Below are positions 492-57,450 of a DNA stretch of 64,000 bases, piece after piece; the stretch's first letter is position 1, and every line of letters starts with the position of its first letter. This stretch comes from Diphasiastrum complanatum (taxonomy: Eukaryota; Streptophyta; Lycopodiopsida; Lycopodiales; Lycopodiaceae). The stretch is taken from positions 30,527 through 94,526 of the forward strand of contig MU831959.1 in assembly GCA_029204225.1 (NCBI GenBank), written 5' to 3'. The notes below the pieces were generated by a model. It made no database searches. It was not told where the DNA came from and was given only the letters and a program-made list of their open reading frames with translations. A program made the translations under genes and the position numbers.

Positions 492-527
492 CATTAGGGG
501 AGGTCCAAGTGCTATAAGGGCCCTTTG
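492..527 (+). repeat. F1 transposon terminus, left
   Basis: Begins CATTAGGGGAGGTCCAAGTG and ends near CCCTTTG. The same 36 bp is reverse-complemented at 63562-63597. The F2 terminus (28909-28944, 18227-18262) shares CATTAGRGGAG at the tip and a CCCTTT block at the inner side with the same spacing, so this is a real element end. Because both F1 arms here come from the same side of the element, the TIR length inside F1 cannot be measured. Confidence 0.8.
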
Positions 528-1280
528 TAAAGACACTTTTTTTTGACTTTTCAGCTATTCGACGTCCACATGTCCCAATATTATTTTTACATGTGTGCAG
601 GACGGTAACGGTGTTTGTCGGACAATTTTTTTTTACAATTTCCCAGGCATATTTTTAGCCAGTTCAAAACTCCTGCCGAGCAGAGTCTAGATATGTGATT
701 GGATAATATATTGTTTCTCGTCGGGAAGAGACTACCCAAGTTTAACTAACTGAGGTTAAACTAACTTGCATGGATGGTTCAACTAACTGAAGTTATCAAT
801 CATTTTGTACATTATCAATCGTTTTGTATCTTGGGTGTTCATTATCAATCGTTTTGTATCTTGCACTGTTATGCAATGGCCGTTTGCAATCGAAGACCGC
901 GTAGTGCGATCAATTCGGTCACTGTTTGTAATGAAAGGGATTCTGAAGGATTATGGATACCATGCACATACAGAAAGTTTTAATGGGTTGTGATGCATCC
1001 CTCATCAAATGGTGCATTTCGCAAAAGAAAGAATTCAAATATGGATTACAGAAACTTTTGGAAATGAAGAATTTTTGAGTTCAAAGTTTCAAAGGGAGGT
1101 CAATCCATTTCAATAGTCTTGATTCAACATGTGTATATGCACAACGAAGTTATGGTGGAGGATGTCAATTCCGTAGATCGACTCAAATGCAATTGTATGT
1201 GATGCAACTTATGCTGGTTTTTCTATGTTAATGATCCACATTCATTATTGTGATATATTTGTGTTAAAATAGAATATTGT
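528..1280 (+). other. F1 subterminal region, possible 5' part of gene D
   Basis: Holds a T-rich stretch, then repeats of ATTATCAATCGTTTTGTATC (about 815-862). Short open stretches at 774-993 recur in the right arm (63095-63314, minus), where the conserved phrases KWCISQKKEFKYGLQKLL and SLDSTCVYAQ can be read at 62941-63135. This may be an upstream exon or exons of gene D, but I cannot fix a start codon or splice sites. No known domain recognised. Confidence 0.35.
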
Positions 1281-2230
1281 CTTTTGCAAACTTGTATCCA
1301 TCGAGCATAAGCAAATGGCAACCAATACAATCACTTGCAGGCATCATAGACGTCATTCATTCTGATATCGGTTTACTCCAGTATAAGCATCGTCCTTTAA
1401 AATCACTTTTGGATTCTGGCATTTTTTTTACGATTCTCTAGTACATACCATGCAAAAATGGTTTGAATGGCAAACTAGAAACTCTACCACATTTTTTAAG
1501 TGAGGAATGGGTTCCCCCCGATTCTACCATAGCAAAAAGTTTTAGATCGAAGTTTTTTATGGACATTCAAAATTGCATGAAATGTAGCACAGGTTCAAAA
1601 ACCAATAGACTATATTGGTATTTACCATTTGCAATTTTTGTATATTTTTTTGCTAGATGTAATGTTCGTAATTCAGTTACAATGTTCATTGCTAAGGATT
1701 TAACTGACGAAATGATATCAGAACTCCTTGATGATCATTGGGATGTGAAAACTGATGGTAGCATTCAATGTAGGGCTAAAAATCATCCATGATATTTTCA
1801 TATCATATAGAAAAACAAATGCTTTCTTTTATGTTTTATTATAGAAAATGGATTAGAGGTAATAATGAATGGAAAGCATTAGATCAAGATTTTACAGTGA
1901 ACCATCAAGAGCAAATGCAAATAGAGGTGAAGCAAAATGAGGTTGTTATTGCGACAATTGAAGTGGAGGAGGATTGGAGTCTAAAATATATACGATCGGA
2001 ACTTATAATGTTCCAATTTGACATACCTCAAAGCTATGGTTTTTGAGTAAATGGAAGAAAGGTACATTTTTGTATTAAATAGTCTATTATATAATTGTTA
2101 GACTGTAATTTATTAACAATGATTTATTGATAGATCATTTTCAATGTTAATGCAGATTAGAGCAAGGCAAGGAGATCATATCCCATGCAAAGATTTATTG
2201 TCAAGCATAGAAATTGTCGAAACAAATTAA
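1281..2230 (+). pseudogene. Gene D of F1, unrecognised protein
   Basis: The frame runs from about 1290 (YPSSISKWQPIQSLAG) through a TAG at about 1430 that the right arm shares, then a 110-residue stretch with a C-x2-C pair (NCMKC), NRLYWYLPF and FARCNV. A 1-nt deletion near 1780, judged against the right arm, shifts it into the next part, which has EVEEDWSLKYIRSEL and FDIPQSYGF-VNGRK. A GT-AG intron (2062-2155) then leads to a last exon ending IEIVETN and TAA at 2230. The pattern strand, then IR..., then IP..F.F.VNGRK resembles a beta-grasp (ubiquitin-like) module, but that is a weak guess. It is convergent with gene C (stop at 2563). It appears absent from F2, where only about 300 bp separate gene C from the TIR. 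Confidence 0.5.
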
Positions 2231-2562
2231 AGCTTTGATGAATCAGTAAATCTACAATATTGGTGAGCTTAACTTTCTTTGTGAAATTTTAGATTGCTAA
2301 CTTTTGGCTCCTTTTATATTAACCCACATTGTTTATTGATAAATGTAATTCCATTGTTTTCATGTGCAGGTTCAAGAAAAGTGAAATGAAGAATTGAAAT
2401 AGCAACAATAGAATACCAAATGATGGAAATAGCAACAATCAAATATCAAAAGACTCGACAGGGTCATCATTTGTACACATTGAATGTAAATTTTTGAAGT
2501 ACATATTTTTGTATTGGCCTTTCAATAAGACCATTTATCTATTTTTCTATATAAATTTCTTT

Positions 2563-4499
2563 TCAATGAGCTCTTTCAAGTGTAAGCTCCCCAGCTTCTT
2601 GATCAGTTGTCACCGATGTTGCATTAGAGAAAAAAATCTTAAGCATCTCTTGTCGAAATTCAAATAGGTCATTTTGTGTGAATTCCGGATAGGTGAACTG
2701 CAAATCATCAACAATAGACAAGTTAGACAAATACACAAAAGTAGAAAATCATATAAATAAAATCAGTGTACATCCAAACCCAAATTACCTGACGTATATC
2801 GACATTTTTCCCTTGGTTGATGAACCAGTCCATAAAGCATTTTACATTTTTAATGGCATACTAGCCACAACTGAATGAGTCAACTTGATGAGAGGACTGA
2901 GAATCAAAATACAAAATGTTAGTTTCACATTTTTTTATATGGCAATTTGCATCACAAAAAGACTAACTGAAAAATTGGTTACTTGTGCGTCTATTATCTC
3001 TATGTGCCTTGCTACACATAGGGCCTTCGTTGGAAAATAAATGATCATGCTTTTGTACATCTTAATGTCGACATTGAGGTGTGTTGATCTCAAAGAGTTC
3101 ATTCTCAGCACCTTTGGATTACACAAACTGGCTTCATCCACTCTTAGTGATATAATATGTATAGACCAGTGATGACTACAATCAACCAAATAGTCAATGA
3201 TATGTAAATGAAAAAAATACAATTAAAGCATATAATAAAACAATACACACAACTCAAATTAAACAATACATACTTTTGATAGTATGGCACAACAACGAAA
3301 TTTTTGGAGTCGCATGGCATATGTCGTAAACATGATGCAGCTGATTGCTCATCCTTAAGCATGTGACAAAAAAATTGAGTAAGCACAAAAACACCAGAAA
3401 CACTGTTGCTTTTGTACAACTGAACCCAATAATTGAGTCCAGCTTTGAGAATTGGGTGTGTGAGGTCCGAAGACTTATTCAATACCTCCTTACAGATAAC
3501 ATGATTAAAATAATTCATATTTGAGACCGAATATCTATACAAAGCGACCACCTAATTTATTTATTTTTTTAGCTATGTACTCGTCAAAAATTATGTATCA
3601 CTCTGAATAAAAAAATGTCAGCATGGGATCGACCAAATATTGAACAGCTAAATTTTTATATACAGTTCCTATTGATTGAGATGGGCTATCAGGAAAAAGA
3701 GCAATTGATTTTGTTATATATTTATCCAGATCCTCTGTGGTGTGTCTCGGCACATCCAAAGACAGGTCACTATCAGAAGAGTAATCTAGTAAAAAATTTA
3801 GACCAGGACTGACAAGAAGACCCTCTTGACCTTTCAATGTATCAAGAATCAATTGGGGCTGGCCTATCATCTACTCGGTCTCATCTGATAGTACTAATCT
3901 TCTTTTAGACGGAGGTGGAGGAGAGGGGGATTCTTCAGGTTCCACCCTAGACGGCCTAGCTTGATCATGAGTTGGCTGGTCTTCAACTGGCTTGATTTGA
4001 TTTTTTTTTGGCCCTAGTTCCTGACCTCACTGGCCTTGACTCCTTTCTTTTCCTCTGATAAGTGGGTCTAAACCCTAGGAGCTGGTCGGGGAGGTGGAGG
4101 TGCCTTGAATACCTTCTCGTACTGATTCCTCAGCCTAAACACAAGCTCCATATCCTTGGGCATGATAGCCACCCACTTTGTGTGTACAGCAACAAGCACA
4201 GTATCTTCAAAAAACCTAATCTGATAATCTTTATAGGCTGTATGCAATGCTTCAATTGCAGTCACGCACCATCTGACATCCACAGACAAAGACCTTGTCA
4301 CATCCCTCACTATTCGGTTGAAGTGAGCTTTCGGTATTAGAAGGTTGGTGGACTTCTGTAACCTCCTGATATCTCTGAGCCATGGGCAGAGTTTTCTGCC
4401 AGTTCCCCTAGCACGAGGCCGAGTAGCTGCAGGATGCAAGGATGATGTGGCTTGACCAGCAGATGAGACAATAGACTTTGGACGTGTGGTCGCAGGCAC
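2563..4499 (-). pseudogene. Gene C of F1: H3-like histone fold plus Ulp1-like (C48) domain
   Basis: Reading from 4499 downward: an H3-type histone fold (4068-4499), a linker rich in Pro (KAPPPPRPAPR; later SPSPPPPSKRR), a region of about 200 residues, then a Ulp1/SENP-like core. The core shows VVVPYYQ, a GT-AG intron, HHWSIHIISL with the catalytic-type His, and LRMNSLR where the family Asp-Ser usually lies. A second intron (2897-2982) precedes SSHQVDSFSCG with the expected Gln and nucleophile Cys. A third intron (2698-2788) precedes the last exon (FTYPEFTQ... ending LTLERAH, TGA at 2563). Intron positions and exon ends match F2 copy d. Breaks: TAG at 4068, a frameshift in the linker, TAG before 3870, a stop at 3598, and TAG in place of Trp after SFSCG. 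The first in-frame codon at 4499 is GTG and no ATG follows the upstream stop, so the start was lost or lies in another exon. Two adjacent genes instead of a fusion cannot be excluded. Confidence 0.75.
4068..4499 (-). other. Histone H3-type fold domain of F1 gene C (CENH3-like)
   Basis: An open 143-residue stretch. LRDIRRLQKSTNLLIPKAHF aligns with the H3 alphaN helix; IVRDV is helix 1. Loop 1 ends in VDVRW, helix 2 is AIEALHTAYKDY..., FFEDTVLVAVHTKWVAIMPKD matches the H3 [20 protein letters not shown] block, and MELVFRLRNQ is helix 3. There are no gaps against canonical H3 in the fold. Traits shared with centromeric CENH3 proteins are LIP instead of LIRK before helix 1, Trp where H3 has Phe after loop 1, and an unrelated N-tail without the ARTKQTARKS motif. 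Loop 1 has canonical H3 length, not the longer CENP-A loop. The tail is rich in Ser, Thr, Arg and Pro. Confidence 0.85.
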
Positions 4500-5381
4500 G
4501 CAACTAGGTCGTAGATGAGTTACTTGAATGCAGATCCTCGCGCGGCTCCGATATCAGCCCAATAGATTCCAATATCGCAGCGACGCGAAAGCAACCAGAA
4601 TTCTCAGAAATCCTGTTGATGGTCGCGCGGCTCCGATATCAAGTTTCCGTGAGAGAGAGCAAGGAATGATTCAGGAATCCGGTAGCCAAATGGTTTTCAT
4701 TCGCGGTCTCTGCTTATATAGAGAGAGATTTTTCGTGCATTAAATTAAAGACGCCACGTGCCAATTTTTTATTGGTGTGTCCTATTAATGATTGCTTTAC
4801 ATGTGCAAATACACGTGTCATATTTTCAACCACACACGTGCCAAATTCTGATTCGTGTATTTTATTAATAATTCCTCGACACATGTGGATACACGTGTCC
4901 TCTTTTCAGCCACCCACGTGTCACCTATGGATTTGGCCGAAATTTCACATAAATGTTTCACACGCGTTACAGGTATTGACGTATCTCTGAAGTGTCGCAT
5001 ATCTAACGGTTATTTTTGAACGGCTACGATGAATCTATGGGATCTATATAAGGGCTAAACAACGCCATAAAACGTTTTGCTATTCAGAGATCGTCAAGGC
5101 AATATCGCAACCACGCGATTCCACTACGTTTGATTTTATTTGCCATCACTCCCTCGCATGCCTACGATATTAGTTATTCGTTTCAGTTGCCGAATATCGC
5201 TATGACGCGATGCTGCTACTTTTCTCTATTTTTCCTGCACACCGTCACGTGCCTGCGATATTGTTACATTCTGTTTTGTCTGATATCGCTGTCACATGAC
5301 AGTCTCTCTGTCGATCCGAATTGTTTCCATTCCTCGCGTGCCTGCGATATCCAGTATCCAGTGTTGTCTATCATTTTCGAT
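4500..5381. promoter_or_regulatory. F1 bidirectional control region between genes C and A
   Basis: About 880 bp between divergent genes C (-) and A (+). The centre (4750-4925) holds five CACGTG cores in ACACGTGTC/CACACGTGCC contexts plus ACACGCGT near 4960. Both shoulders carry GCGATAT or ATATCGC motifs: CTCCGATATCA near 4548 and 4630 and CCAATATCGCAG near 4565 on the C side; six on the A side between 5100 and 5352, several paired with CGCGTGCCTGCGATAT. Likely TATA elements include TATATAAGGGC near 5045 (A side) and TGCTTATATAGAG near 4711 (C side). The layout is shared with F2 copies b and d. CACGTG is the plant G-box/E-box core; whether host factors or the element's own proteins bind here is inference. 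Confidence 0.6.
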
Positions 5382-6891
5382 ATGGAATCTAACAAGCTGC
5401 ATAAATTTCTCTCTGACGCTAGTGTTCTAGACAGGATTGAGTACTTTTCATCGCTTTTTCGTCTTAAATTTGATGTCGATAGATTTTTGCTTGAGCACAA
5501 GTCTCACTTATTAGAATTATTCGAAAAGTTTCGGACTAGCATCCTCGAATTATCTCTTGTTATTGATGGCCTGAAGTGTATTCATTTCCATGGACTGATA
5601 GTTGCCCAGCCTGAAGCCAAGCACAAGCATGATAGGAAGTTTACCAAGCTTGACGAGAGCCTGAAGGTGGTACAATATTGTGAATCCCATAGGAGATCAT
5701 GCAGGTTTATAGCTGAGAACATAGCTTTTGTTTTCTTCATATCTGCGTTAATACCTGATGAAGGCCAATCTTTCGGATTAATTGGTTTTGGTTCTTCAAG
5801 TAGAACATCTACTTAGAGATTTCCAATCGATGTGGACAAAAATTTAGAAGACGAAGTATTGGGTGATGAGGAAGAGGCTAGGCTGGCGTCGATGTATGAC
5901 CCTGCTCTGTCATGGTCGATGGTAATATCTTCTACATCAGATGTAGAAGAACATGATAAAAGGAAGACACTGCTCGACATTCCTGTATACCATATGAATA
6001 GTCTGCCATATTTATCATTGAATGATATTGGGGATGTGTTAAACATGAGAGAGGACGAGATCCTATCTGTACTAGCCAATGCATTGTCAGAATTTCGGAT
6101 ATAATAGACTTCAATCATGATGATTTAATTGAAGGGATTGACTATCAAGATGAAGGTGGTTGGAAGTCTGGAGGGCAGGCCTTACAAATTACAAGGCAAC
6201 AATGTCTAGCCTATGGCGCAAATGCTCCCAGTGAGGAGGAGTTCATTGAGTTTCAAAAAAAATATCCTCCTCTAGAGCAATATATTTTTTCTGAGGATAT
6301 GTTTCTTGTTGGGCATGACTTGCATGGAAAAGGATTGTTGGAGTATGATCAGCATGACATGGTAATTTTTATTTTCTTATTCCATTATAATCATATTTAG
6401 CATTGTATTCAATGAAAATCCATCTGAAAATTTAACTGATTACAAATTTTTGTATTTATATTGCAAGACACAATTGAAGTTGATGATTTTGCTACGAGAA
6501 GAGGAGGTGCCCGAGGTGTTGTTGGCGATAAGGATTCAACATTGTGCCATTATCTGAAATACTTTGTACAAACTGAAATCTGTATTCAACATGACAACTT
6601 TTATTCACAAGCAAGAACTATAGTAATGGCAATAAAGGCATTGTCCTATCTTTGTGATGGACATAGATATCCTAATAGTACATACAAAATCATATTTGTG
6701 AAGAGGGATATAGCTATCAAAATATTGGGTTATGTTTCTAAAAATGTACCCAAAAGATCATCTGCTTTAGCAGTGTACGCATAGAGTTGAGCAAAAGAAG
6801 ATCAATTGAGCATCTGGATCCATATGAGAGGAGACAATTTCTTCATGACCATATTGCTCAGCTGACCTTTGATACCGATGAGGATATGTAA
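5382..6891 (+). pseudogene. Gene A of F1, left copy: acidic accessory protein
   Basis: Starts MESNKLHKFLSD. The N-terminal part is mostly helical (IEYFSSLFR..., LELFEKFRTS), then come CESHRRSC and a hydrophobic stretch (FVFFISALI), then an acidic middle (EDEVLGDEEE, ALSEF). A GT-AG-like intron (6361 to about 6467) leads to exon 2 with VDDFATRRGGARG, YLKYFVQTEICIQ, VMAIKALSYL and KIIFVKRDIAIKILGY, and an acidic tail (TFDTDEDM, TAA at 6891). Breaks against the right copy: TAG for CAG at 5814, a 1-nt deletion near 6100, and a small deletion at 6782. The family is unrecognised. The last helix-strand-helix pattern is faintly histone-like. Its end is only 19 bp from the convergent end of gene B. 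Confidence 0.6.
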
Positions 6892-6910
6892 TATTTTAAT
6901 TGTTTTTCTA

Positions 6911-8037
6911 TTACGATGATGAAGTTGAACTATTTCTCCTTAGATGTTGAAATGCCTTTTTGAATGAAATGAGGATTGTTGAATATTTGGTTTGATATCT
7001 AAACTGTGCTCTTCTAAAGAACCATTGAAATAATTGATATAAGTAGCATATCTTTGAATTATATCCTCCATGGTTGGTTGCTTGATGTAAAGCTCCTCTT
7101 GCTTGCCAATGCGATTTCTATATACCTTGAGAAGACCATATGCTCATACTTCCATATTCTTTTGCAAAAAATCTGGTGTGATGTAATAGAATATGCTGCA
7201 ATCAGTAAAATACATATATCAGAAATCAAATTAATGACGTTGCAGAACAATTTTTGCACAAAAACAAATAGTGAATTACCATATAGTGTGTAACATGATC
7301 CTCTCCCTAACATTCTGCTACCGATTTGACAAATATCTCACAATATTTTTGTAAATTTGCAATGTCAATTTCAGATAACTTTTCTTTTCGCAACATGCCA
7401 ATCAAATTGTCAAGATTTTGCCATACTGCAGCTTTTTTTAATCTTGTGTTGCCCCTCTCTTCAAAATCTTTTGATGCTGCAACAACGTCTTTCCGAACAT
7501 TGTATGTCATGGTAGAAGACTTTCCAGTGTGATTGGATAAAAACCTTCTAGCTTTTGCACCACCAACAGATGGCTTGTTTGGAACGTTCCTTGATTTACC
7601 GGATTATTTTTCACTTTTTTCTATTTTACATTCCCCTTGTGCAAACCTGCTTTTGAAAGTACTTGCTCTAATCTCTCAATTCCAATTTTAGAAGCCGATT
7701 CAGGTTTGGTATTTCAGACATACAAAATATGATTATAAATCAATTTTTCAATAATTCGTACCTCAGCATGCAATGTGCATATGTGAACATTGATCAATGG
7801 AATTGCCAACACAGGTCTAAAGTTCGGATCCTCTTGATCTCTTGTTGGACCAACTCATGATCTTGTCATATTCAAGTCTTGACAATTCTTCATACAACAC
7901 AAACAAGGGTGTTTAGTATTTTCCCCATGCGAAACATTATACATACATTTCAGTGTCTTTAAATCACCTGCAAGATGCCATAAAATTTGAAACATGCCAT
8001 AGTTTGGCACATATATTTTGTTTCCACCCATATGCTC
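6911..8037 (-). pseudogene. Gene B of F1, left copy: C-terminal half of the transposase
   Basis: Minus strand, read from about 8037 to TAA at 6911. It keeps GDLK...YNVSHG with the CLCC-type cysteine pair (about 7890-7970), LINVHICTLHAEVRIIEK, GKS-rich VPNKPSVGGAKARRFLSNHTGKSS, WGEDHVTHYM, an intron, and HILLHHT-FFAKEYGSMSIWSSQG-EKSHWQAR. The exon structure equals the right-arm copy (57672-60244). It is cut at 8037 by copia LTR sequence, removing the first catalytic Asp region and the N-terminal coiled coil. Several stops and frameshifts are present. Confidence 0.65.
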
Positions 8038-8330
8038 TTCAAGCTCTCTAATTCATTATCCTCTTTCTATTTCTGATACTTGCTACAATGATTGATATCA
8101 AATATCCAATTGAAATAGTGTGAAGCTGTCACAAACATCCAATTGTTTCACTTTCTTCATGGCTACAACTACCTAGATTTTTTACCAGTTAGAAGAACGA
8201 TTTAAGTAATGATATGAATTTGATAATTTGATTTGATCCTTTATAGTATTCATTGTATTTCCTTTGGCTAATGTAGATATCTTGCTAGAGTAGTAAATAC
8301 TCACAGGGTGGTATCAGAGTGGGTTCAAAT
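8038..8330 (+). repeat. LTR fragment followed by a tRNA-Met primer-binding site
   Basis: 8080-8306 is the reverse complement of the LTR at 42698-42900 (shared phrases around 'ctttggctaatgtagatat'). It runs into TGGTATCAGAGT at 8309-8320, the standard plant initiator-tRNA-Met primer-binding site, and a short leader that is also copied at 42600-42680. So this is the 3' edge of a copia LTR on the plus strand. Its internal domain is lost, replaced by another LTR from about 8385. Confidence 0.65.
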
Positions 8331-10066: not shown

Positions 10067-11874
10067 TTATATGAAGAAGAAATCCTCCTCACACCTTGGC
10101 CCCATCATAACTTGAATACCTTCAAAAAAGATAACTTGTGATGCTTCTTGAGAAGCCTTGATCTCGGCCACTTCCAAGATTGAATCTTTATGCAATATGA
10201 CATCTCTATTCACAATCACTTTTGAAATAGAGAGTGTAAAGACACTAAAGGCCTCCTTGATGGATGAGTATCCAATCATGGTCCATGAGCTTGGATCATC
10301 CTTCCTCCTTGTTTCCAAGGGAACATGTGCAAAGCAAGCACTACCAAGTTCACTAAGGTGATCAACCTTAGGCTTTATCTTGAATAAAACTTCATATGGT
10401 GCTATTCCCTCAAGAGCTCCAATACTCCTCAAAGCTTTGATCTTCAATGAGAATTTCTTCTCAACATATGCTTTGAATAATAAGGAATAATCATACACCA
10501 TAATACTTGAAGAGAGAAGATATGTGCATCTTGTGTGATCATCCTCCTTTGAAATATTGGACATATAAGAAACATCAAGAGATTTTGCACTCTCACTTGG
10601 ATCCAATTTGTAGATGCCTTCAAACCTTGATCCATATGCAAGGATCTGACCATCCTTCTTGATCACACAATTGTCAATATTGAAATTGACATCAAAGCCA
10701 CTATCAAGAAGTTGGCCAACACTTAAGATGTTCTTTGTAAGCTTTGGGACAAAAAGAACATTGTTGAGAAAGAGATCTTTGGAAGATGCAAGCTTCAAGG
10801 GAATAATCCCTACTCCTTCAATATTGCACTCATGCTTACTTGCAATGTATATGGTCTTCTTGACTCCATCATAAGGCATAATAGATGAAAAGGAGTGCTT
10901 GGAGCCACACATATGTGAAGATGCTCGACTATCAATATACCATGAGTCATCCTTGTTGAAGGTGGAAGAGGAGAAGCTTGATGCCATAAGAGAGCCTTCT
11001 CCATCACTTGCAATATAGTCTTCTTTCTCATTGGTGATGTTGGCTTGATTGAGTTGATTCTTCTTCTTGAAGCAACTGGTGGCATAATGGCCTTTCTTGC
11101 CACAATAAAAGCACTTGATCTTCTTCTTCTTGAGATTTGAATTAGAAGCATGAGAGGTATCCTCCTCCTCTCCATCTTGGTCTTTAGCTTTGTCATTAGA
11201 GAAGTGATGATGCTTCTTCTTACTCTTCTCTTTGTGCTTAGCAAATAGAACTTTGCCATCATCATGATTGAGTGATAGCTTGTCCATCCTCAAGATTTTG
11301 TACTCTTGTCTTGATTCTTCAGAAATAAGCACACTTTGAAGGGCCTCCAAACTTGTTAGATCCTCCTTAATGGCATAGGATTGGACAAGGTTGTCATATT
11401 CACCTCTCAAGCCATTGAGAATGACTTGGACTAGCTCACTTTGATTGATTGAGTCACCAATACATGCAAGCTCCCTATGAATATCCTTGACTCTCAAAAC
11501 ATAATTAATGCACTCTCATCACTCTTTTGACTACTTTGGAAGATTTGATTTCTAAGAGTGAGGAGCCTAGAGGTGTTCTTAGCCTCATAGATGGACTTGA
11601 GACAATCTCAAACTTCCTTGGATGTAGAACAATCACCAATCTCCCTCAATATCTCATTAGAGACATTCATCTTAATGTAGTGGAGAGCCATCCTAGCTCT
11701 CTTCTTGTATTTTTGTACTTCTTGAAGGACTTGAGGCTCCTCCTCAATCCCAAGTACAATGTCCATCACATCTTGGAGTATCAAGATGGACTCCATCCTC
11801 AACTTCCATATTGAATAATTGGAAGTAGACAATCTCTCACTTGGTTGCAACAAGTATGAACTCATTGAAGTCAT
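10067..11874 (-). pseudogene. Ty1/copia gag-protease pseudogene with fused pol remnant
   Basis: The gag start (MTSMSSYLLQPSERLSTSNY, 11874) is the usual copia SNYSIWK...M region. It is shifted out of frame near 11500 and continues as GDSINQSELVQVILNGL. A CX2CX4HX4C zinc knuckle (CFYCGKKGHYATSC) lies near 11070-11110. The protease motif WYIDSRASSHM has Arg where D-S/T-G is expected, so it is inactive. The pre-integrase segment (VPKLTKNILSVGQL) is present. The integrase core is deleted: the frame jumps into a fragment ending SPYEVLF-like plus an HVPLETRRK block. A primer-binding site lies downstream on plus at 12535-12546, giving a minus-strand element. Confidence 0.8.
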
Positions 11875-12657: not shown

Positions 12658-13868
12658 ATGACAAAAACACCATGTGACTACTACATGCATTCAATCACTT
12701 CCAACTCTCATTCATCCAACAAGAAAGCCTATCGAATCTACATGCTCTCTACCTCTAAAGTAATTGATAGTAGAGGTGTAGTTTTTCATGAAGAAGAAAA
12801 GTCCAATCTTGGAGGGGCCGAGATCAAGCAACCTGAAAATCTATCACCTATTGTTATTGAAGACAATCAACATATGGAGGAGTGGATTTAATTGATTTCA
12901 ATGTTGATACATGTACAATCAAGGAGCATGATGAGATCTTTGCATTTGGGTCTAGATATGGTGGAAGCTACAAGCTTGATCCCAAAGAGTATGCTAACTC
13001 TTGTGATAGTGCTTTCGCTACTCATATGTCTTTGGAGGAACTATGGCATAGAACGTTGGGACATCCTAACTATAATTCTATGGTGTCCATGGTCAAGAAA
13101 GCCAAAGCTATTGGCTTGCCTAATCTTATCTCCAAGAATTTCAAGCCATGTGAGGCTTCTGCCATATCTAAGTCTCATAAGAAGCCTTTTTCAAAGTCAT
13201 CTATCAAGACTACACATCCATTGGAGCTCATACGCTCAGATGTGCACTTCTCATCTTCAAAGAGCAAGGGTGGTGCTACTTGCTTTGTAGCTTTCATTGA
13301 TGATTTCACTAGATTTACTTGGGTATATCTTCTAGCTTCAAAATCTATGGTGTTTGACTATTTTCTAAAGTTCAAAGCTCTAGTTGAAAAGCAATTTTCT
13401 TACAAAATCAAGATTCTTAGAAGTGATGGAGGTGGTGAGTACACTTCCAATAAATTTCATGATTATTGTGAGCTTGAAGGCATTAAAAGGGAGTTTTCTT
13501 GTGCATATACACCATCTCAAAATGGGGTGGCTAAAAGAAAGAATAGAGCACTGTGTGAATGTGCCAAAACCATTAGAATTGAGGCATCCTTGCCAAAAGA
13601 CTTTTGGGGTGAGGCCATCAATTGTTCAAACTATCTTTGCAATAGACTCCCTCATGTTGCACTTGGAGGAAAGTCACCATATGAAGCACTCTATTTGAAG
13701 AAACCTAAGGTTGAACACCTTAGAGTATTTGGATGCATATGCTTTGTCCATATTCCCTTGGAAGCGAGAAAGAAGAATGATCCTTGTGCAAGCAAAGGAG
13801 TAATGGTCTTTCTTGACCATGGACACCATAGAATTATAGTTAGGATGTCCCAACCTTCTATGCCATAG
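12658..13868 (+). pseudogene. Ty1/copia integrase fragment
   Basis: A short pol piece (12658-12890, KVIDSRGVVFHEEE) precedes a 328-codon open stretch (12882-13868). The latter has pre-integrase ELWHRTLGHPNYNS and an integrase core with RSDVHF, FIDDFTRFTWVY, LRSDGGGEYTS and PSQNGVAKRKNR. The family triad is D-D-E with the Glu in NGVAERKN; here it is Lys, so the core is inactive although nearly 1 kb is open. It ends by running into an inverted copy of its own beginning at about 13806. Confidence 0.85.
12890..13104 (+). repeat. Inverted repeat, left arm (copia)
   Basis: This 210-bp stretch, encoding TCTIKEHDEIFAFGSRYGGS and onward, is repeated nearly perfectly on the other strand at 13806-14008. 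The 700-bp spacer is the integrase core. The arrangement is a head-to-head join of two copia copies. Confidence 0.8.
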
Positions 13869-14813: not shown

Positions 14814-14817
14814 ATGA

Positions 14818-17188: not shown

Positions 17189-17190
17189 GG

Positions 17191-18226: not shown

Positions 18227-18262
18227 TAAAGGGTCTTTTTGATATTGAGAACTCCTCTAATG
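18227..18262 (-). repeat. F2 terminal inverted repeat, right end of copy a
   Basis: Ends ...GAACTCCTCTAATG. Its reverse complement starts CATTAGAGGAGTTCTCAATA and matches 28909-28944 across 36 bp. Outside it (18263 on) lies the middle of another F2 gene C, so copy a abuts or is nested in copy b. Confidence 0.85.
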
Positions 18263-18735
18263 GGGGCTGCCTGCTTCCTAGGACGCTTGGTAGGAAGATC
18301 AGTCCTATTTAGAGGAACAGGTCTGGGAGCAGTAGGCTGAGATACATGTAACTTGCAAAACCTCTCCCTTATTCTCATCAGTAGCTAAAAGTTCTTGGGC
18401 ATTATGTTGACTCTCTTGGAATGAATTGCAAGCAAAAATGAATCTTCAAAAAGAAGGCTCATATAATCTTTAGCAGCTTCCTGAAGGCACTGAAGAACAC
18501 TAGCTATGAATCTAACCAGCTGTCCAAGATCATTTCTAGTTATATTTCGGATAGCACGATAGAATGGAGCTCTGGGAATCAATAGTGCGGTTAATCTCTA
18601 ATACTTACATATTTCAGAGAGCCACCTGCTGCAGTTGCACGTTCTAGGTCTAGCGGGAGGTGTAATGGCAACCACAGAAGCTGAGGACGAGCCAGCAGAG
18701 AAGAAGTCTCTCCTTGTCTACTTTCTCCTATCCAT
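18263..18735 (-). pseudogene. Gene C of F2, copy b: H3-like fold fragment
   Basis: ATG at 18735 (MDRRK, then TAG for Gln). The tail ends PPARPRTCN, and the fold shows LLIPRAPFYRAIRNITRNDL, LQEAAKDYMSLLFEDSFLLA and IHSKRVNIMPKNF. Here the LLFED block is intact, where copies a, c and d have a stop; the VSQPTAPRPVP linker also reads Gln where they have TAG. Its own stops lie after MPKNF and near KY. The fragment ends in the linker (PRKQAAP) at the TIR of copy a. It is therefore an independently decayed lineage showing that the fold and linker were once one frame. Confidence 0.75.
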
Positions 18736-19449
18736 GGAAGTGTACTATGGGATATCAGACTTGTGCGTGACAACTAGGATGAGCAGGGAAGGATTATAAA
18801 GCCCTCGCAGAGGACCCATATGTACGGACAAAATGTATGGTATATCGGACCTATGCGAGCCGAATATCAGAGAGATAGATTAGTATAGAAGAGAGGCGCA
18901 CAAGTGCGATATGCAGAGCGAAAAAAAAAGTGAAAAAAATTCATCGAATTTTGTGATTTTATATCCCGGTTTGCATGTGCGAAAGAACGTCATGTCACAC
19001 GTGTGGGACTTGTACGGTCAAATGCGAGAGTGACACGTGTCAAGCTGTCAATTTACACGTGTGGGATTTTTACGGGCAATTCCGAGAGAGACACGTGTTG
19101 TTGAACAAACAAATGAACATGAGCACCGTGTACAGGTATCATTTTACATGTTCACCTCACACGTGCCAGTGCCTATAGTCCAATCAAAAGTAGACACGTG
19201 TCCATTGACTGTTGACCACACGTGTGAAAATTTAGTATAAATGGCATGAAACTCTATTAATTTTTTACTTTTTTATTCTCAAAATTCATGGCATACCGCT
19301 CTTTTGTGCGCGCATTGTTGTCCATTTGTTTGCAACGATACCTACTTGCGCACAAGTGCGATATTCAGTATCTACCTGCCGTACATATCTCTCTTGAGTG
19401 CGATCTTGAGAGTTATTTTTGTTTCGATTGTTAGCCCTAGCACACAAGT
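18736..19449. promoter_or_regulatory. F2 bidirectional control region, copy b
   Basis: Lies between divergent C (-) and A (+). Seven CACGTG cores occur between 18998 and 19227 in ACACGTGT or CACACGTGCC contexts. Both shoulders have CACAAGTGCGATAT-type motifs (near 18900-18915, 19345-19360, 19441-19455) and a TATA-like GTATAAATGGCA near 19235. The layout equals copy d (49876-50671) and parallels F1 (4500-5381). Confidence 0.6.
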
Positions 19450-19665
19450 GTGATATCCTCTTCCTCAAGATCTTCACAAGATTCAGGCCTGAGTTCATTT
19501 TTTACTGAATTTAGATTCAAAGATATACTTAGTAAGCCAGTTTTCTCCATAAGTTCACTCCAGTACATGCATTATACTGATCTTGTTCATTTCTTCCTAG
19601 CTTTCAGACATAGACTAGATAGAATGCTCACCAAATTGTTTGATCTTTTCAAAAGCAGTTCAATG
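19450..19665 (+). pseudogene. Gene A of F2, copy b: N-terminal fragment
   Basis: Reads SSQDSGLSSF, then, after an internal deletion relative to copy d, FKDILSKPVFS and LQYMHYTDLVHFF. Near 19665 it changes abruptly into copia DNA that matches 23870 onward, so the rest of gene A is replaced. Confidence 0.55.
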
Positions 19666-28908: not shown

Positions 28909-28944
28909 CATTAGAGGAGTTCTCAATATCAAAAAGACCCTTTA
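28909..28944 (+). repeat. F2 terminal inverted repeat, left end of copy c
   Basis: Starts CATTAGAGGAGTTCTCAATA; the 36 bp equal the reverse complement of 18227-18262. It fixes gene B as the gene nearest this end. Confidence 0.85.
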
Positions 28945-29439
28945 AGGAATGCCATGTAGGATATAGAAAAATATCAAAATAAAAAAAACAATATTGTTTA
29001 TTTGCTTGCCCACACCACTCCCAAGGCCTCCCCAACTCCCAATGATCTAACCACAACATCTATAGTCACAGTTAACAACTGTTAACAATTCGCAGTATAA
29101 CTTGACTAAATTCAAAAATATTTCCTCCATTGGTTACAAAAAGAGAATATTTTTACTGCATCTAGAATATGACCGCCATCCCCAAATGCAAATCAGGAAA
29201 AATTGCAAAATGTTTACATATGCATTACTTCCACGAGAATGGAAAAATGAGCACCAACTACCTATTGGAATGAAAAAATGAGCGGCATTTTCAAATTTGA
29301 ATCAAGCATACAAGCATGGAGATTGGATTGATCGTACATAGTATATGATATAATCAAAGATGAGTATTTTGTTTTGCTTCATAGAATTTGGTCATAGTAC
29401 TTTGATGCAGCTGATTACTCTATTCTTTTTTTGATGATG

Positions 29440-31469
29440 ACATTGTATCATCTACATGTGGATATCCCTATTGATTTGGCACCTTTGCAAAGAAAAGGAG
29501 GCAAAGGAATTCAAATATCTGTTGAGGATCGTTCTCGTTACAGGGCCGAAGGAAAAAAAACTTGAATTTGTGGATAGATGAAACATTCTATCCACAAGAT
29601 CCAAGCACTTTGACACATCCCACATTCTCTTCAATAACTCATTTAGTTACATGAATACGCAATGGGCATAGTGGATTAATAGGATATTGTGAAAGATTGC
29701 AGAACCATGGAAAACAATTTTATATGAATAAAGTTCACTTTTTAGAAGGTGAGTTAATTCGGATATCCTCTTATTGTCAGAATAGAGATTGTCTCCAAAA
29801 GACGTTAGAAGAAAATGAACAACTTAATAAAAATAATGAATCATTATAGAATATAACAATCAATATCAAATCAGAACTAGAGCAAATGCAATCAGGCTTA
29901 CAGTCTATTTGTATTGAAAACTTACAATTATTGAAGGATGTGGATTTGGCAAAGAAGAAAGCTAAAAGTAAGAAGCAAAAGCGACAAAGTTGCAAGGATA
30001 TTAAAATGCTTTCAAAAGGAGGTTATCGAAATGGAAGGATCCGTGCATTCAAGTAAGCATATTCTGATTTTTGTAGGTTTTTCAATGACATTTGGATTTA
30101 ATTTCAGCTATGGTGATATTTTGTTAACTATATGTTTTTTTTGCAGATCTGCATTGGTAGCTCCTCGGAATATTAAAGACAATGCTTCACTAGGAATGTC
30201 ATTGGGCACAAAATTGACTTGCAAATCCACTGAGCATATCATGATGAACAATAGGATTTCAAATGTAAAGAATAAAATAGCATAGTCTTTGATGATGGAC
30301 ATTCAAAAATTTTTAGATAAGACTATAGTTCAGGGTGCTTGTGATTTTGCAGGTATTAGTAGAGAAGAATATGCAACAATATTTAAACTAATTAGAGAAG
30401 CTTTTAAGCAAGTTCAAATTAGAAAAGTCCCAATCCCTAGGACAGATCACTTGAAGAAAGTGAGAGATACATTAAACATAGGTATGCATAAGATCACTAG
30501 AACTCCATTTCATATTGAGGTGTATGAAACTGACGGAAGATCGATATTCTATGATTCATCAAGCAATTTATTTGTTGATCTAAATTACTTACTGAGATAC
30601 ATCGTCACATTCTATGATATAGTCTATGAAAAGGTGAATGGCAAAATAATCATAGTACTTAAGTTAGATGAGTCAGAAATTGTGAAAGGGTAAGCAAAGG
30701 AAGCTATCTCTCGATTAGAAGATGTTTTATCAAAAGCAGGACTCCATAAAGGACATGTCAAAATTCAAAAAAATGAAAAGCTTTCAGGAAAGAATGGGAA
30801 CATGCCAACTAAGCCAAGCATAAGAGGAGCAAAAGCACATCATTTCCTATCAAATCATACTGGTAAGGCTTCTAATATTCAACACTTAGTCTGGACATAT
30901 ATTATTGCTGCCATTCAAGACTTCGAGAAAGACGGCAAAACCAGAGTACTAAAAGTTGATGTATGGAAAAAGCTTGATAGTATGATTGCTATTTTAAGAA
31001 AAGAAAAATACTCTGATATTGATAAGAAAGCTGTTCGAAGGACTTGTGTCGAGTTTGTTAATGCGATATCAAAAACATGGGGAGAAGATCACATCACTCA
31101 TTACATGGTTAGTATAAAATTTTCAAAATGCTTTCAAATTTTCATATATATTTAGATCCAAACATAAGACTAACATTATGATTTTGACATATGCAGCACA
31201 TACTAAGAGATCATACAACATTTTTTGCAAATACATATGGAAGCTTGAGTGTATGGTCATCACAAGGGATGGAGAAGTCACACTGGCAAGCACGAACAAC
31301 ATTTCATCAAAATACACAACATGGAGAAACCAATGAAAAACAAAACTACATTTGTCAATTGTTTCAGTGGTTCTACCGCAGAGTTCAGATTCGACATATA
31401 ACAAAGTCCACACAATACAACAAGTTTAGAAAAGCATGCAAGTTCATACAGGAAGAGAAAAGTAGATGA
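29440..31469 (+). pseudogene. Gene B of F2, copy c: transposase with N-terminal domain, catalytic centre deleted
   Basis: ATG at 29440: HVDIPIDLAPLQRKGGKG..., a 1-nt shift, then LNLWIDETFYPQDPST and NGHSGLIGYCERLQNHG. A Gln/Asn/Lys-rich coiled-coil stretch and a Lys-rich patch (KKKAKSKKQKRQ) follow. An intron (GCATTCAA/GTAAGC to TTTTTTGCAG) leads to RSALVAPRNIKDNASL and FAGISREEYATIFKLIREAF, then on to VLKLDESEIVKG. There an 0.9-kb deletion removes the AAFQ-VLKEDH-GDLK-CLYC part. It resumes at AKEAISRLEDVLSKAG and runs to TGA at 31469. Only this copy shows the N-terminus of F2 gene B; it aligns with F1 at 57672-58190. Confidence 0.7.
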
Positions 31470-31603
31470 TTGATGAGTAGAAAATCGTCATTGTCATCAA
31501 ATCATGACATGTTCAGAATTGCTTTGCAAATTCATTGAACAAGAGAGGAGAAATACCCAATGTAAATGTATTGATTGTATTATACCAAAATACAAAGTGT
31601 TAA

Positions 31604-32028
31604 CTATTCATCATCAGATCTTGTATCAGATTCTATGACAGTATTGTCATGTAGAAATTCTCTGCTAGCGTATGCATCTAATAGATGTGCATTATCCTTA
31701 TTTCCACTAGGCTCAATATAAGTGGAATACAATGAATAATGGGAGCTCCTTAAAGGAACATTCCCATCAGTAAAGCCTAAAATGTTCAAAACATAAGATC
31801 TTTTGACAAAAATGATCTTATTCGTCTTACCAAATTTATGTCCTCCTAGGTAAAATGATAAAGCTTTAACTGCCATTATAAGACTCTCCCCGACTGGGCT
31901 CAGCTTGGAATGAGCAATACAGATCTCATTCTTTAGGAAATGCCTAAGATAGTGGCCCAGTCCACTGTTCCTCTGGAACGAGGATGCGTGTTGTCTGAAA
32001 TCACCTCTTCTCGAAGCAAAATCATCTA
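31604..32028 (-). pseudogene. Gene A of F2, copy c: last exon only
   Basis: Differs from 16764-17188 by one residue (Ala to Ser in AARRGG); the exon is open and ends in DTRSDDE. The head-to-head deletion join with gene C is the same as in copy a, so both derive from one deleted progenitor or a segmental duplication. Confidence 0.65.
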
Positions 32029-32030
32029 GG

Positions 32031-32787
32031 AGAATGCAGACAAGGAGGGACTTCTTCTCTCCTAGCTCATCCTCATCCCCTGCGGTTGCCATCACACCAC
32101 CCGCTAGACCTAGAACGCGCAACCGCAGCAGGTGGCTCTTTGTGATACGCAAGTATCAGAGATCAACAACTGTGTTGATCCCAAGAGCTCCATTCTACCG
32201 TGCTGTTCGGAACATAACAAAAAATGATCTCGGACAGCTGGTTAGATTCACACCCAGTGCTCTTCAGTGCCTTCAGGAGGCTGTTGAAGATTACATTAGC
32301 CTTTTTTTTTAGTATTCTTTTTTGGTTGCCATCCATTCCAAGAGGGTTACCATAATGCCCAAGGATTTTCAGCTCCTGATGAGGATGAGGGATAGGTACT
32401 ATAGGTTACATGTATCTTAGCCTGCTGCTCCTAGACCAACTCCTATAGATAGGACTGATCTTCCTACAAAGCATCCTAGGAAGCAGACAGCCCCCAAGCA
32501 TGCTCCTAAGAAAGTGAAGCCTAACCCTTCAAATTTTGTGAAGCCTAACCCGGAATCCATTGTAGATAACAATGCTGTTGATTCATGATTAGTTTTCTAT
32601 TATGGTGATGTTTTTGGCCATTACTAATACATGAATGTTTGCAGTTTACACTTCATGAGTACACATCAATCTAGGTGTACAGATGTAGACAAGAAATTAT
32701 CTTCAGTATACTGGCTAGGGAAAGGCTTCAGTCTCCCTTTATTGATGATGGTGCAAAGGATGATGTAGTTATACTAAATTATCTATA
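32031..32787 (+). pseudogene. Gene C of F2, copy c: H3-like fold, protease core deleted
   Basis: Virtually identical to copy a (17191-17947): the H3-type block IRKYQRSTTVLIPRAPF ... HSKRVTIMPKDFQL, the same two TAG stops, a Lys/Pro linker and a deletion of the Ulp1 core, leaving only the final exon. The TIR-proximal 270 bp follow, to 33053. Confidence 0.75.
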
Positions 32788-33053
32788 ACTGTAACTAGTA
32801 TAGTTAGAAAATTTCATTATACTAACCAACATAATCAAGTAAATTTAACTTGAGGTATTGACGTCGGGCATATTAGCACGTGTCGGGCAGGAAGAAGAAA
32901 CCAATGGGATACGTCCATGCTGCCCGGATACAAATTTCAGAGTCTTCTATATTGCATTTTTATTTTTTAGTTAATTTGAATTACGTTACATAGATTTCAA
33001 GGTATGTGCATTTTGATTGGGCCTTGTGACGGTCGAAACTACAGAAACAAAAT

Positions 33054-33731
33054 AATCGACTGTGTGTCCTTTGCATCTGCAAATCACGCATGTCTTCCTT
33101 TCGTTGTCTTTATGTCTCGACTTTCCTTTCTTCTTCCATTTGCCTTTGCTAGCTCCTTCTGTTTGTTGGGCTCGATCCTACTTTCAGTCTAACTCCCTCT
33201 TAGGCTTGAACTGCATCTTCAGCTTTTCTTTGTTGTTGTAGAGAGCCTGATCAGAGGAGTTCTTGTGATCAAGGTGCTCATGGGCTTTGACTTCTTCTCG
33301 AATCCTGATTGCTACTTTTTCGAGAGTCATCTCTGGATCTTTTTCTAGCAATGTTCGGGTCGTCTGGAAGGATTTTGGTAACGCTCGTAGCAAGTAGGTG
33401 AGCTGCTTCTCAGCTGATATTGCATTGTCTTTTCTGGCGTTGTGTAACGAAACAAACAGATCCTTCATCTTTCTGATAAAGGATGTGAGGTCTTTGCCAT
33501 CCCATCGTAGGTTTGTTAGCTAATCTTTGAGAAGCATTATCTGGCTACGTGATTTCGTTTGGAACCTGGTAAGTAATGCCTTCCACATCTCTTTTGTATT
33601 AGAGAGTGTCACGAGATCAAGCATTAGGCTATTTTCGATGGATGATGACAACATGGCTACTGCCTTGTCATCCTTTTCTCGCCATTCTCGTAGCCCTTTG
33701 TCGGTGGTTGTAGGCATTCCTACAGTGCCAT
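33054..33731 (-). pseudogene. Ty1/copia gag, C-terminal part (split by an LTR retrotransposon)
   Basis: Minus strand from 33731: TDKGLREWREKDDKAVAMLS, IENSLMLDLVTLSNTKEMWK, LLTRFQTKSRSQIMLLKD, a stop, LLRALPKSFQTTRTLLEKD, a Lys-rich patch, and the start of a zinc knuckle (CVICRCKGHTVD) that is cut at 33053 by F2 copy c. The N-terminal part lies at 38813-38947, beyond the inserted retrotransposon. Confidence 0.8.
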
Positions 33732-46634: not shown

Positions 46635-46639
46635 CTTGT

Positions 46640-55343: not shown

Positions 55344-57450
55344 GTGATCTAAGTAAGAAGCGACAGCGACAAAGTTGCAAGGATATTCAAACGCTTTCAA
55401 AAGGAGGTTATTGAAATAGAAGGATCCGTGCATTCAAGTAAGCATATTTTGATTTTTGTAAGTTTTTCAATGACATTTGGAATTAATTTCAACTATGGTG
55501 ATACTTTGTTAACTATCTGCTTTTTTTGCAGATCTGCATTAGTAGCTCCTCGGAATATTAAAGACAATGCTTCACTAGGAATGTCATTGGGCACAATATT
55601 GACAGGCAAATCCATTGAGCATATCATGATGAACAATAGGAGTTCACATCTAAAGTATAAAATAACAGAGTCTTTGATGGTAGACATTCAAATAAATTTA
55701 GTTAAGACTATAGTTCAGGGTACTTGTGATTTTGCAAGTATTAGCAGGGAAGCATATGCAACAATATTTATTCTAATTAGAGAAGCTTTTAAGCAAGTTC
55801 AAATTAGAAAAGTCCTAATCCCTAGGACGTATCACTTGAAGAAAGTGAGAGATACATTAAACATAGGTATGCATAAGATCACTAGAACTCCATTTCATAT
55901 TGAGGTGTATGAAACTGACGGAAGATCGATATTCTATGATTCATCAAGCAATTTATTTGTTGATCTAAATTACTTACTGAGATACATCGTCACATTCTAT
56001 GATATAGTCTATGAAAAGGTGAATGGCAAAATAATCATAGTACTTAAGTTAGATGAGTCAGAAATTGTGAAAGGACAGAAGATGCAGAGGGTTAGTATAA
56101 CTCTCATGAATGGTGCTCTATCACAAACAGAGGACCAAGAAGATTTCAGATTCAGTGTCCAGTCAAAAAATGATCTATGGTGGTTGGCAGCGTTTTAGCT
56201 AGTTACATTACATTCATTGAATATTATTAATTCATTGTAAACTAAGTCTGATTAATTCTATGGAAGGTGCTGAAGGAGGATCATGATATATTATCATGGA
56301 TATTCTCAAGGACATCTTATCCTAGGATCATCAAGGACCATATGGATGGAGGACTTCTCAATGTTCTAGGAGTTGGAGACTTCAATGTTGAATGGCACTT
56401 AGCAGGTGATTTGAAAACATTGAAATGTATGTATAATGTCTCTCACGGTGCTACATCAAAACACCCTTGTTTGTACTGCATGTAAATGGCAAAAGATGTA
56501 ACTAGGAGTACAAGAATTCCTAGAGAATATGCAGATCCAAAGTGGAAGTTTGTGCTGCCTATCCCCTTGAAAAATGTGCATGTTTGCACTCTTCATGCAG
56601 AAGTTAGATTAATAGAAAAGGTCATTTATCTTCATATAGCTTTTTCTTGGAATACTAAGCAAGCATCATTAGCAAAGGAAGAAGCTATCTCTCGATTAGA
56701 AGATGTTTTATCAAAACCAGGACTCCATAAGGGACATGTCAAAATTCAAAAAGATGAAAAGTTTTCAGGAAAGAATGGGAACATGCCAACTAAGCCAAGC
56801 ATAGGAGGAGCAAAGGCATGTCGTTTTCTATCAATTCATACTGGTAAGGCTTCTAATATTCAACACTCAGTCTGGACAGATATTATTGCTGCCACTCAGG
56901 ACTTCGAGAAAGACGGCAAAACCAAAGTACTAAAAGTTGATGTATGGAAAAAACTTGATAGTATGATTGCTATTTCAAGAAAAGAAAAATACTCTGATAT
57001 TGATAAGAAAGCTGTCCAAAGGACTTGTGTCGAGTTTGTTAATGGAGTATCAAAAGCATGGGGAGAAGATCACATCACTCATTACATGGTTAGTATAAAT
57101 TCTTCAAGATGCTTTCAATTTTTCATATATATTTAGATCTAAACATAAGACTAACATTATGATTTTGAGATATGCAGCACATACTAAGAGATCATACATC
57201 ATTTTTTGCAAACACATTTGGAAGCTTGAGTGTATGGTCATCACAAGGGATGGAGAAGTCGCACTGGCAAGCACGAGCAACATTTCATCAAAATACACAA
57301 CATGGAAGAACCAATGAAAAACGAAACTACATGTGTCAATTGTTTCAATGGTTCTACTACAGAGTTCAGATTAGACATATAACAAACTCCACACAATACA
57401 ACAAGTTTAGAAAAGCATGCAAGTTCATACAGAAAGAGAAAATTAGATGA
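55344..57450 (+). pseudogene. Gene B of F2, copy e: most intact F2 transposase body
   Basis: Begins in the Lys-rich patch (KKRQRQSCKD), intron donor TTCAAG/TAAGC near 55436, acceptor near 55532. RSALVAPRNIKDNASLGMSL, GTCDFASISREAYATIF, LKLDESEIVKGQKMQR and NDLWWLAAF follow. The next donor is damaged (TTTTAGCTAG against TTTCAGGTAA in copy a, making a stop). VLKEDHDILSWIF, EWHLAGDLKTLKC, CLYCM, TAA (for AAA) near 56482 follow, then a long open stretch 56486-57136: NVHVCTLHAEVRLIEKVIYL, GAKACRFLSIHTGKAS, WGEDHITHYM. An intron (57088-57177) leads to HILRDHTSFFANTFGSLSVW, SSQGMEKSHWQAR and TGA at 57450. Only two disabling changes are seen in this part. Confidence 0.75.

Follow-up and report, generated by a model that had tools for sequence, protein, structure and literature searches.

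The 64,000-nucleotide stretch of Diphasiastrum complanatum DNA analysed here (contig MU831959.1, positions 30,527 to 94,526; hereafter the window) contains DNA transposons with terminal inverted repeats (TIRs) that carry a histone H3 gene (gene A), a transposase-like gene (gene B) and a third gene (gene C). Our data show that a RAG1/Transib-like TIR transposon lineage carries the H3 gene as an old, selected component. The histone fold and the eight-residue tip of the tail are kept in the majority sequences of five subfamilies, and no sampled tail has K9 after the tip. This pattern in the sequences suggests that the element may use a histone of its own. The family labels F1 to F5b are those of this analysis.

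The open reading frame (ORF) at 4071-4553 on the minus strand encodes a histone H3 fold and lies within a TIR DNA transposon. The window was searched as 724 stop-to-stop ORFs of at least 40 codons, using phmmer with human H3.1 as the query. Five of the 724 matched at E < 1e-9 (one F1 and four F2 ORFs, Table 1), and the next best gave E = 0.43. The profile check suggested by the initial annotation was positive, with PF00125 (Pfam Histone) matching the F1 ORF at E = 2.5e-20 (73.4 bits, cut-off 26.4) and the four F2 ORFs at E from 3.5e-13 to 8.7e-15. A phmmer comparison of the F1 ORF with the PDB gave histone H3 as the top matches (E down to 8e-21) over residues 56-144, and the alignment is as free of gaps as the annotation had claimed. 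The ORF that it placed at 4068-4499 on the minus strand is present and spans 4071-4553 when read to the upstream stop; the limits of the H3 gene did not stand, since similarity to F2 extends the gene beyond the ORF to about 2566. The F2 places that it named do hold the same fold, and the one at 18385-18735 has two stops. The F1 H3 lies between a terminus and the transposase-like gene, as had been stated, with the TIR at 492 on one side and genes C and B on the other. The F1 copy in the window has lost its start codon and the first tail residues, which sister copies (compare L008/L033) retain, and each H3 copy of the window has part of the gene missing, or stops, or frame changes.

One genome was searched for the three genes, the 1.745-Gb assembly containing the window. 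Searching with the F1 protein yielded 6,613 loose candidates, of which 150 were scored, all with E < 1e-35. A canonical plant H3 query found 13 full-length copies at 97-99% identity, which are host genes, and some partial matches at 82-97%, and it then reached element-type H3 at 44-55% identity. Linkage with genes C and B was counted for the best 87 of the 150 H3 matches (identity of at least 68%), using 100 of 128 gene C matches (23 at 45-47% identity and 5 small fragments were omitted) and 96 of 150 gene B matches (those of about 64-71% identity were omitted). Linkage with the left end was counted from 89 H3 matches and all 57 left-end matches. The co-occurrence figures are lower bounds because the match lists are incomplete. 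Gene C was within 10 kb of at least 45 of the 87 F1-type H3 matches, with 0.1 expected under uniform placement. Among the matches listed, 44 of these 45 pairs were divergent and 34 were spaced 868-956 bp apart, and at least 46 of the 100 gene C matches had a listed H3 within 10 kb. Gene B was listed for at least 25 of the 87, upstream and on the same strand in 25/25 and at 2.76-3.27 kb in 18. The genome has 57 exact matches to the left end, CATTAGGGGAAACCTC, and 84 to the other end, CATTAGGGGAGGTCCAAG; both patterns read backwards have 0 occurrences in the genome. The exact left end was found no more than 12 kb upstream in at least 19 of the 89 H3 matches, and the orientation was the same in 19/19. 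H3 copies recur in elements bounded by CATTAGGGGA ends, with gene B and gene C at fixed spacing. The initial annotation argued for an ancestral cargo gene and against chance host capture near each insertion. The linkage of H3 to gene C, to gene B and to the left end, together with the fixed spacing, supports H3 as a putative ancestral cargo of the transposon, and the same three linkages rule out chance capture near each insertion. The co-occurrence of H3 ORFs with gene B and CATTAGRGGAG ends, on which that proposal depended, was found in the one genome searched.

The loci L073 and L032 together give a complete element with both ends, 8,995 bp long by subtraction. Eight 10-kb loci (L031-L038) were examined for the three genes at E up to 0.01. 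All three were present in L031, which duplicates the window, in L032 and L033, and in L037, which is a diverged subfamily carrying the whole trio; in L038 they were rearranged. L034 had gene C and a 36-residue piece of gene B, L035 had gene C and no gene B, and L036 had neither. At the F5 locus L069 the order of H3, C and B is different, and L070 has a weak gene C match (E 0.001); neither C nor B was found below E 0.1 in L071, also of F5. F5 and F5b (L049-L071, L108-L113) form a second abundant H3-bearing repeat class. Gene C has a single relative in the protein collection, P0016 of D. complanatum (E 1.6e-39), and no Pfam family; its structure model (pLDDT, the predicted local distance difference test score, 39.9) was not used. 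The window contig (G000:C441) has a near-copy on G000:C12 near 56.11-56.18 Mb (L002, L031), in which the H3 is 99% identical, the sequence beyond the TIR is the same, and the gene B and C scores are equal. Derivatives of 3.1 kb in which the two ends enclose an H3 match occur at G000:C1:77492469-77495555 and C16:16728063-16731149. They are copies of one insertion, because their outer flanks are identical, and are probably too short for all three genes.

Gene B has no Pfam family up to E 10, and its relatives gave nothing above the cut-off. Nine relatives were found among 8,000 candidates scored (E 9.3e-133 to 2.4e-65; sources coded lgn and ena). A family model of P0004 with alignment A1 (pLDDT 59.7; predicted template modelling score, pTM, 0.46) was compared by Foldseek and had six PDB matches below E 0.001, namely five RAG1 entries (2.5e-8 to 9.1e-6, the best being 6cik at 2.5e-8) and the Transib transposase (6pqr, 9.3e-5); the next match was at E 0.25. 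The template modelling (TM) scores were modest (query 0.23-0.31, target 0.37-0.46) and the root-mean-square deviation was 14-20 Å, and the match therefore concerns the fold and not its details. In 9/9 relatives of gene B, 96-103 residues separate the first D from the second, and C(2)C lies 20 residues past the second D. H(4)H lies 24-25 residues before the E in the two relatives reaching it, in the window copies and in L031, L033 and L038. RAG1 has nearly the same motif spacing. We know of no solved structure of a CACTA or Chapaev transposase. For this reason gene B is placed in the CMCT group as defined in the available text of PMC12730594, and no finer. The same text gives C(2)C and H(3-4)H between the second D and E as a trait of Transib/RAG1 (CMCT) transposases, and gene B has both. 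As judged from the modelled fold, gene B is a RAG1/Transib-like DDE transposase of the CMCT group. Other assignments were rejected. Transib proper has a 5-bp target-site duplication and CAC ends; at the 6 distinct sites compared no convincing duplication was found, and the present elements end in CATTAG. CACTA/EnSpm elements have a Pfam transposase match and CACTA ends, whereas gene B has no such match up to E 10 and the ends are CATTAG. A hAT transposase of the Pyrenophora type does not fit the lack of a Pfam match and the RAG1-like fold.

The tip of the H3 tail was counted at 64 loci, including the window copy L001 and some near-duplicates (e.g. L002; L005/L011; L018/L019; L024/L025; L091/L092); the F5 sample was 8 loci read at the 5' end. 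ARTKQTAR is the majority sequence in 5/5 sampled families (F1, F3, F4, F5 and F5b), with MARTKQTAR as the start. A loose pattern that allows listed substitutions was present at 55/64 loci (26/31 F1, 6/7 F3, 14/17 F4, 8/8 F5, 1/1 F5b). Strict counts, made separately, gave the exact tip at 22 loci (F1 10, F3 4, F4 1, F5 6, F5b 1) and at most one change at 41/64. Comparison of the majority codons of the tip among the five families showed differences in 61/80 comparisons and amino acid differences in 0/80. At the three positions after the tip, codons differed in 30/30 and amino acids in 29/30. The rest of the core H3 tail, with K9, K14 and K27 (ARKS), is not kept; K9 was present in 0/55 tails, and ARKS was absent from the three tails checked. 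The distance from tip to fold is about 30-45 residues in F1, F3 and F4 and about 300 in F5 and F5b. The PF00125 match was 1.6e-24 in F3, 2e-25 in F5 and 6.1e-24 in F5b. In the F5/F5b protein an ARTKQTAR-type tip is followed by a Pro- and Gln-rich stretch of about 300 residues and by a C-terminal H3 fold. P0015 of Ceratopteris richardii and P0013 are similar long H3 proteins with an MARTK tip, a long insert and a C-terminal fold; the 22 member sequences of P0015 are all on one contig, hence there is no sign of many copies. An extra ORF lies upstream of the F5 H3 (L069 4395-5066, L070 3347-4054) and matches no Pfam family (PB1 only at E 0.1).

The ratio of nonsynonymous to synonymous differences (pN/pS; NG86) was calculated over 89 fold codons, with 461 pairs in F1. 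Pairs closer than 0.005 (4/465 in F1, 3/45 among host genes) and L031-L033, which repeat L002, L004 and L008, were omitted, and the F2 values were invalid because of an unaligned one-codon insertion and were not used. The ratio was 0.35 in F1, 0.36 in F5 and 0.12 in F3 (one pair). Between families it was 0.30 for F1-F3, 0.33 for F1-F4, 0.29 for F3-F4 and 0.24 for F5-F5b, and among host H3 genes it was 0.05. The low pN/pS across families therefore indicates that selection has acted on the fold during an old divergence, with a looser constraint than on host H3.

In plants, repeats are kept silent by methylation of H3K9 and H3K27. The initial annotation proposed that the element may use its own nucleosomes to mark, silence-proof or target its DNA, and the tail-tip result makes this possible role more specific. 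An element-owned H3 with its K4 tip kept and without the K9 and K27 silencing substrates may be the main mechanism behind these data, and we give this reading a probability of about 50%. The element would produce the H3, and deposition together with host H4 would take place at element copies or close to them. Nucleosomes of this kind would be able to carry the active H3K4 mark and unable to be fixed in a silent state, because the K4 tip is kept and the K9-S10 and K27-S28 substrates are lacking. Recruitment of K4 readers or of the transposition complex may be a further role of the tip, and the protease, where fused to H3, would be brought to the same chromatin. H3 variants and their exchange matter for the inheritance of DNA methylation in plants, according to the available text of PMC10529913. 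A stronger version is conceivable, to which we give somewhat less than an even chance. A private, silencing-proof H3 would rewrite the chromatin of the element's own copies, or license the transposase through the K4 tip, and would have been kept through at least five subfamilies and perhaps more widely, as the fern protein P0015 has the same layout of tip, insert and fold.

Several observations weigh against an element-owned H3 as the main mechanism. F1-right (about 57.7-63.6 kb) has no H3 gene and nothing that matches about 1805-4755 of F1-left, and 54/100 gene C matches have no H3 within 10 kb among the matches listed; H3 is therefore not needed in cis by every copy. Single copies are often decayed, with the exact tip at only 22/64 loci and at 1/17 in F4, the weakest family, and many H3 copies carry stops. 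F2 reads MDRRRQTRR where the tip is expected. F5 has no protease fusion, and it has an in-frame Met four codons upstream of the tip, which therefore may not be the N terminus in this family. The missing K9 and K27 could be a mere lack of constraint past residue 8. The pN/pS of a single pair was 0.39 in F4 and 0.65 in F5b, and the ratio was 0.51-0.59 for F1/F3/F4 against F5/F5b, where synonymous sites are saturated. Among 8 elements, which occupy 6 distinct sites, no convincing target-site duplication was found; there was none at four of the sites, one had 2 bp, and one was ambiguous in a microsatellite.

The eight tip residues are the sole constant part of the tail, and H3K4 readers bind near these residues. 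The tip may be read as a peptide ligand outside the nucleosome, in which case the H3-like protein would work together with the RAG1-like transposase and would recruit or occupy host H3K4 readers of the PHD or WDR5 type. The RAG1-like nature of the transposase favours this idea, as in the accessible part of PMC6510410 the RAG recombinase is freed from inhibition by the RAG2 PHD finger through H3K4me3. However, the fold is also under purifying selection, which would be superfluous for a mere tip ligand, and we consider this explanation unlikely.

The F1, F3 and F4 proteins run on beyond the fold. In F3 the part after the fold contains a C48 domain (PF02902; E 1.8e-5 in the joined protein, 2.9e-6 and 5.6e-7 in pieces) with HWS, Q and SCGW motifs. 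From these predicted proteins, H3 is fused to an Ulp1-like protease in F3 and probably also in F1. The H3 fold might then serve to bring the Ulp1-like domain to element chromatin, where it would remove SUMO-dependent silencing. The F3 protein, with PF00125 and PF02902 both above the cut-off, and the His, Gln and Cys motifs seen in the translated frames are consistent with such a chromatin-directed protease. However, the F5 and F5b proteins end directly after the fold, the joined F1 piece is below the cut-off (E = 0.01) and F2 has no C48 match. The expected Asp position reads Asn in our own reading, and no PDB sequence match was found up to E 10. As the role of the H3 gene, delivery of a protease is quite improbable. 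Among 8,000 candidates scored, four long H3 proteins were found elsewhere; C48 was present in 0/3 scanned, and the fourth has PF00125 with PF00022.

An origin from CENH3, with targeting of insertion to centromeres or persistence there, would agree with the LLIP and RW residues, which resemble plant CENH3, and with the H3 tree, which puts Arabidopsis HTR12 between element groups. In this tree, whose rooting is uncertain, F1, F3 and F4 stand with F2, apart from F5 with F5b, which may reflect one capture or more. CENH3 has a longer loop 1 than H3. Against this origin, loop 1 is as long as in canonical H3 in the families F1, F3, F4, F5 and F5b, and identity with CENH3 by a long loop 1 was rejected for these families; in F2 it is one residue longer. 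The matches of the F1 and canonical H3 searches, taken together, also fall on every contig from C1 to C24. A centromeric origin has about one chance in ten. Passive transduplication of a host H3 gene without a role, as in Dothideomycete hAT elements, is known in fungal hAT from the accessible text of PMC6710886 and would suit the many broken copies, but is very improbable given the pN/pS of 0.29-0.33 between F1, F3 and F4 at near-saturated synonymous divergence, the same tip despite different codons, and a trio that also occurs in another order (L069).

Table 1. Coordinates of the elements and their genes in the window.
Feature	Position	Strand	Basis or remark
F1-left element	492..8042		H3-side TIR CATTAGGGGAGGTCCAAG at 492; on the gene B side, alignable with F1-right as far as 8042
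F1-left gene A, H3 fold (ORF)	4071-4553	-	phmmer vs human H3.1, PF00125; this copy has lost its start codon and tail tip
F1-left gene A, Ulp1-like (C48) pieces	2843..3171	-	HWSIHIISL 3145-3171; SFSCG*YAIKNV 2843-2878
Five CACGTG boxes, gene A/gene C divergent promoter	4755..4920		motif positions
F1-left gene C, function not assigned	5382..6891	+	relative P0016
F1-left gene B, RAG1/Transib-like transposase (by modelled fold), 3' part, broken	6960..8042	-	stop at catalytic Glu position
F1-right element	57696..63597		gene B 57696-60148(+), gene C ~61986-60300(-), TIR 63587-63597
F2 copy 1	14801..18262		gene B 14801-16629(+), gene C 3' part 16767-17315(-), H3 17113-17469(+), TIR 18252-18262
F2 copy 1, H3-fold ORF	17113-17469	+	phmmer vs human H3.1, PF00125
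Relic of further F2 copy	18261..19665	-	H3 18388-18735(-) with stops; CACGTG-box promoter 18998-19224
F2, H3-fold ORF	18388-18597	-	phmmer vs human H3.1, PF00125
F2 copy 2	28909..33055		TIR 28909, gene B 29935-31466(+), gene C part 31607-32155(-), H3 31953-32309(+)
F2 copy 2, H3-fold ORF	31953-32309	+	phmmer vs human H3.1, PF00125
F2 copy 3	48123..53784		gene A 48123-49878(-), gene C 50708-52173(+), gene B 52311-53784(-)
F2 copy 3, within gene A	H3 49582-49878, C48-like motifs 48409-48753	-	part of gene A
F2 copy 3, H3-fold ORF	49582-49878	-	phmmer vs human H3.1, PF00125
F2-type gene B fragment	55353..57447	+	self-alignment, ORF similarity

The order in F1 and F2 is gene A (H3), divergent gene C, then gene B. 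Exact CATTAGRGGAG occurs in the window at 492(+), 18252(-), 28909(+) and 63587(-). F1-left and F1-right are inverted copies, with 435-1804 at 95% and 4830-8042 at 93% identity in the self-alignment, and the stop at the catalytic Glu position of the F1-left transposase lies in 7097-7132. The two F2 copies near 17 kb and 32 kb show 99.2% identity and have one common internal deletion relative to the copy at 48-54 kb. F2 copy 1 terminates inside gene A of another F2 relic at about 18261, and by our reading it may be a nested insertion into that relic. Clusters of 3 to 8 CACGTG boxes (raw counts) are found in the gene A/gene C divergent promoter of F1, F2 and F3. In the window they lie at 4755-4920, 18998-19224, 50199-50428 and 62211-62273, with 31 boxes in the whole window, and in the other loci at 5343-5508 (L032), 5375-5505 (L033), 5255-5473 (L037) and 5148-5408 (L038), the last at the same distance upstream of gene A as elsewhere. 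No CACGTG box was found near the F4 H3 of L035. Copia-type retrotransposon fragments lie between the DNA transposons at 10070-11497 and 12882-13865 (Pfam Pol_BBD, rve and others), and a further one, by ORF similarity, at 46134-46742.

Hosts silence transposons through histone marks. If an element does have its own H3, this would be a new counter-defence strategy, and selection on only the K4 end and the fold would make it a natural separation-of-function experiment on the histone tail. An H3K4 tip beside a RAG1-like transposase is also relevant to the question of why H3K4me3 and the vertebrate RAG recombinase are linked.

The present elements share with Transib/RAG1 (CMCT) the RNase H-like DDE fold and the C(2)C and H(4)H between the second D and E, and these are the closest solved structures. 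Unlike Transib/RAG1, they end in CATTAG, no 5-bp target duplication was found, no RAG2-like gene was recognised in them, and the host is a plant. Kaonashi elements, which we take to be Ulp1-bearing Mutator-like elements (MULEs) of plants, have a C48 domain and a MULE transposase, and we know of no histone in Ulp1-bearing MULEs. Chromatin cargo in transposons includes SET in HarbingerS and MuDR, TET/JBP in fungal elements and the VANDAL anti-silencing protein (available text of PMC12730594). These are likewise element-borne genes acting on epigenetic state, but in that text they are modifying enzymes or a regulator and no core histone.

The initial annotation knew of no described plant transposon family defined by an H3 gene. 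This stands within the literature searched, where no plant transposon with a histone gene was found (subscription papers were mostly outside the reach of the search), but in fungi H3-carrying hAT elements are known (PMC3538342 and PMC6710886, as far as their accessible text goes). In Pyrenophora tritici-repentis, a hAT element has a histone H3-like gene, H3L, between the TIRs of a DNA transposon, as in the present elements (Manning et al. 2013, PMC3538342). A shorter non-autonomous form and expressed sequence tags for H3L are reported in the same accessible text. It differs in that the host is a fungus, the transposase is of the hAT type, the 26 copies are very similar and recently expanded, and a protease fusion is not described in that text. 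In Pseudocercospora fijiensis and its relatives, hAT elements with a captured histone H3 amplified the H3 coding sequence to hundreds of copies, again by a DNA transposon (Dhillon et al. 2019, accessible text of PMC6710886). Unlike here, all amplified copies were inactivated by repeat-induced point mutation (RIP), and the original alone is intact. The present elements differ from the fungal H3-hAT elements in transposase, host kingdom, age, conservation of the tail tip and protease fusion. Carriage of H3 by a DNA transposon is already known from fungi, and the conservation of the tip across subfamilies is new here.

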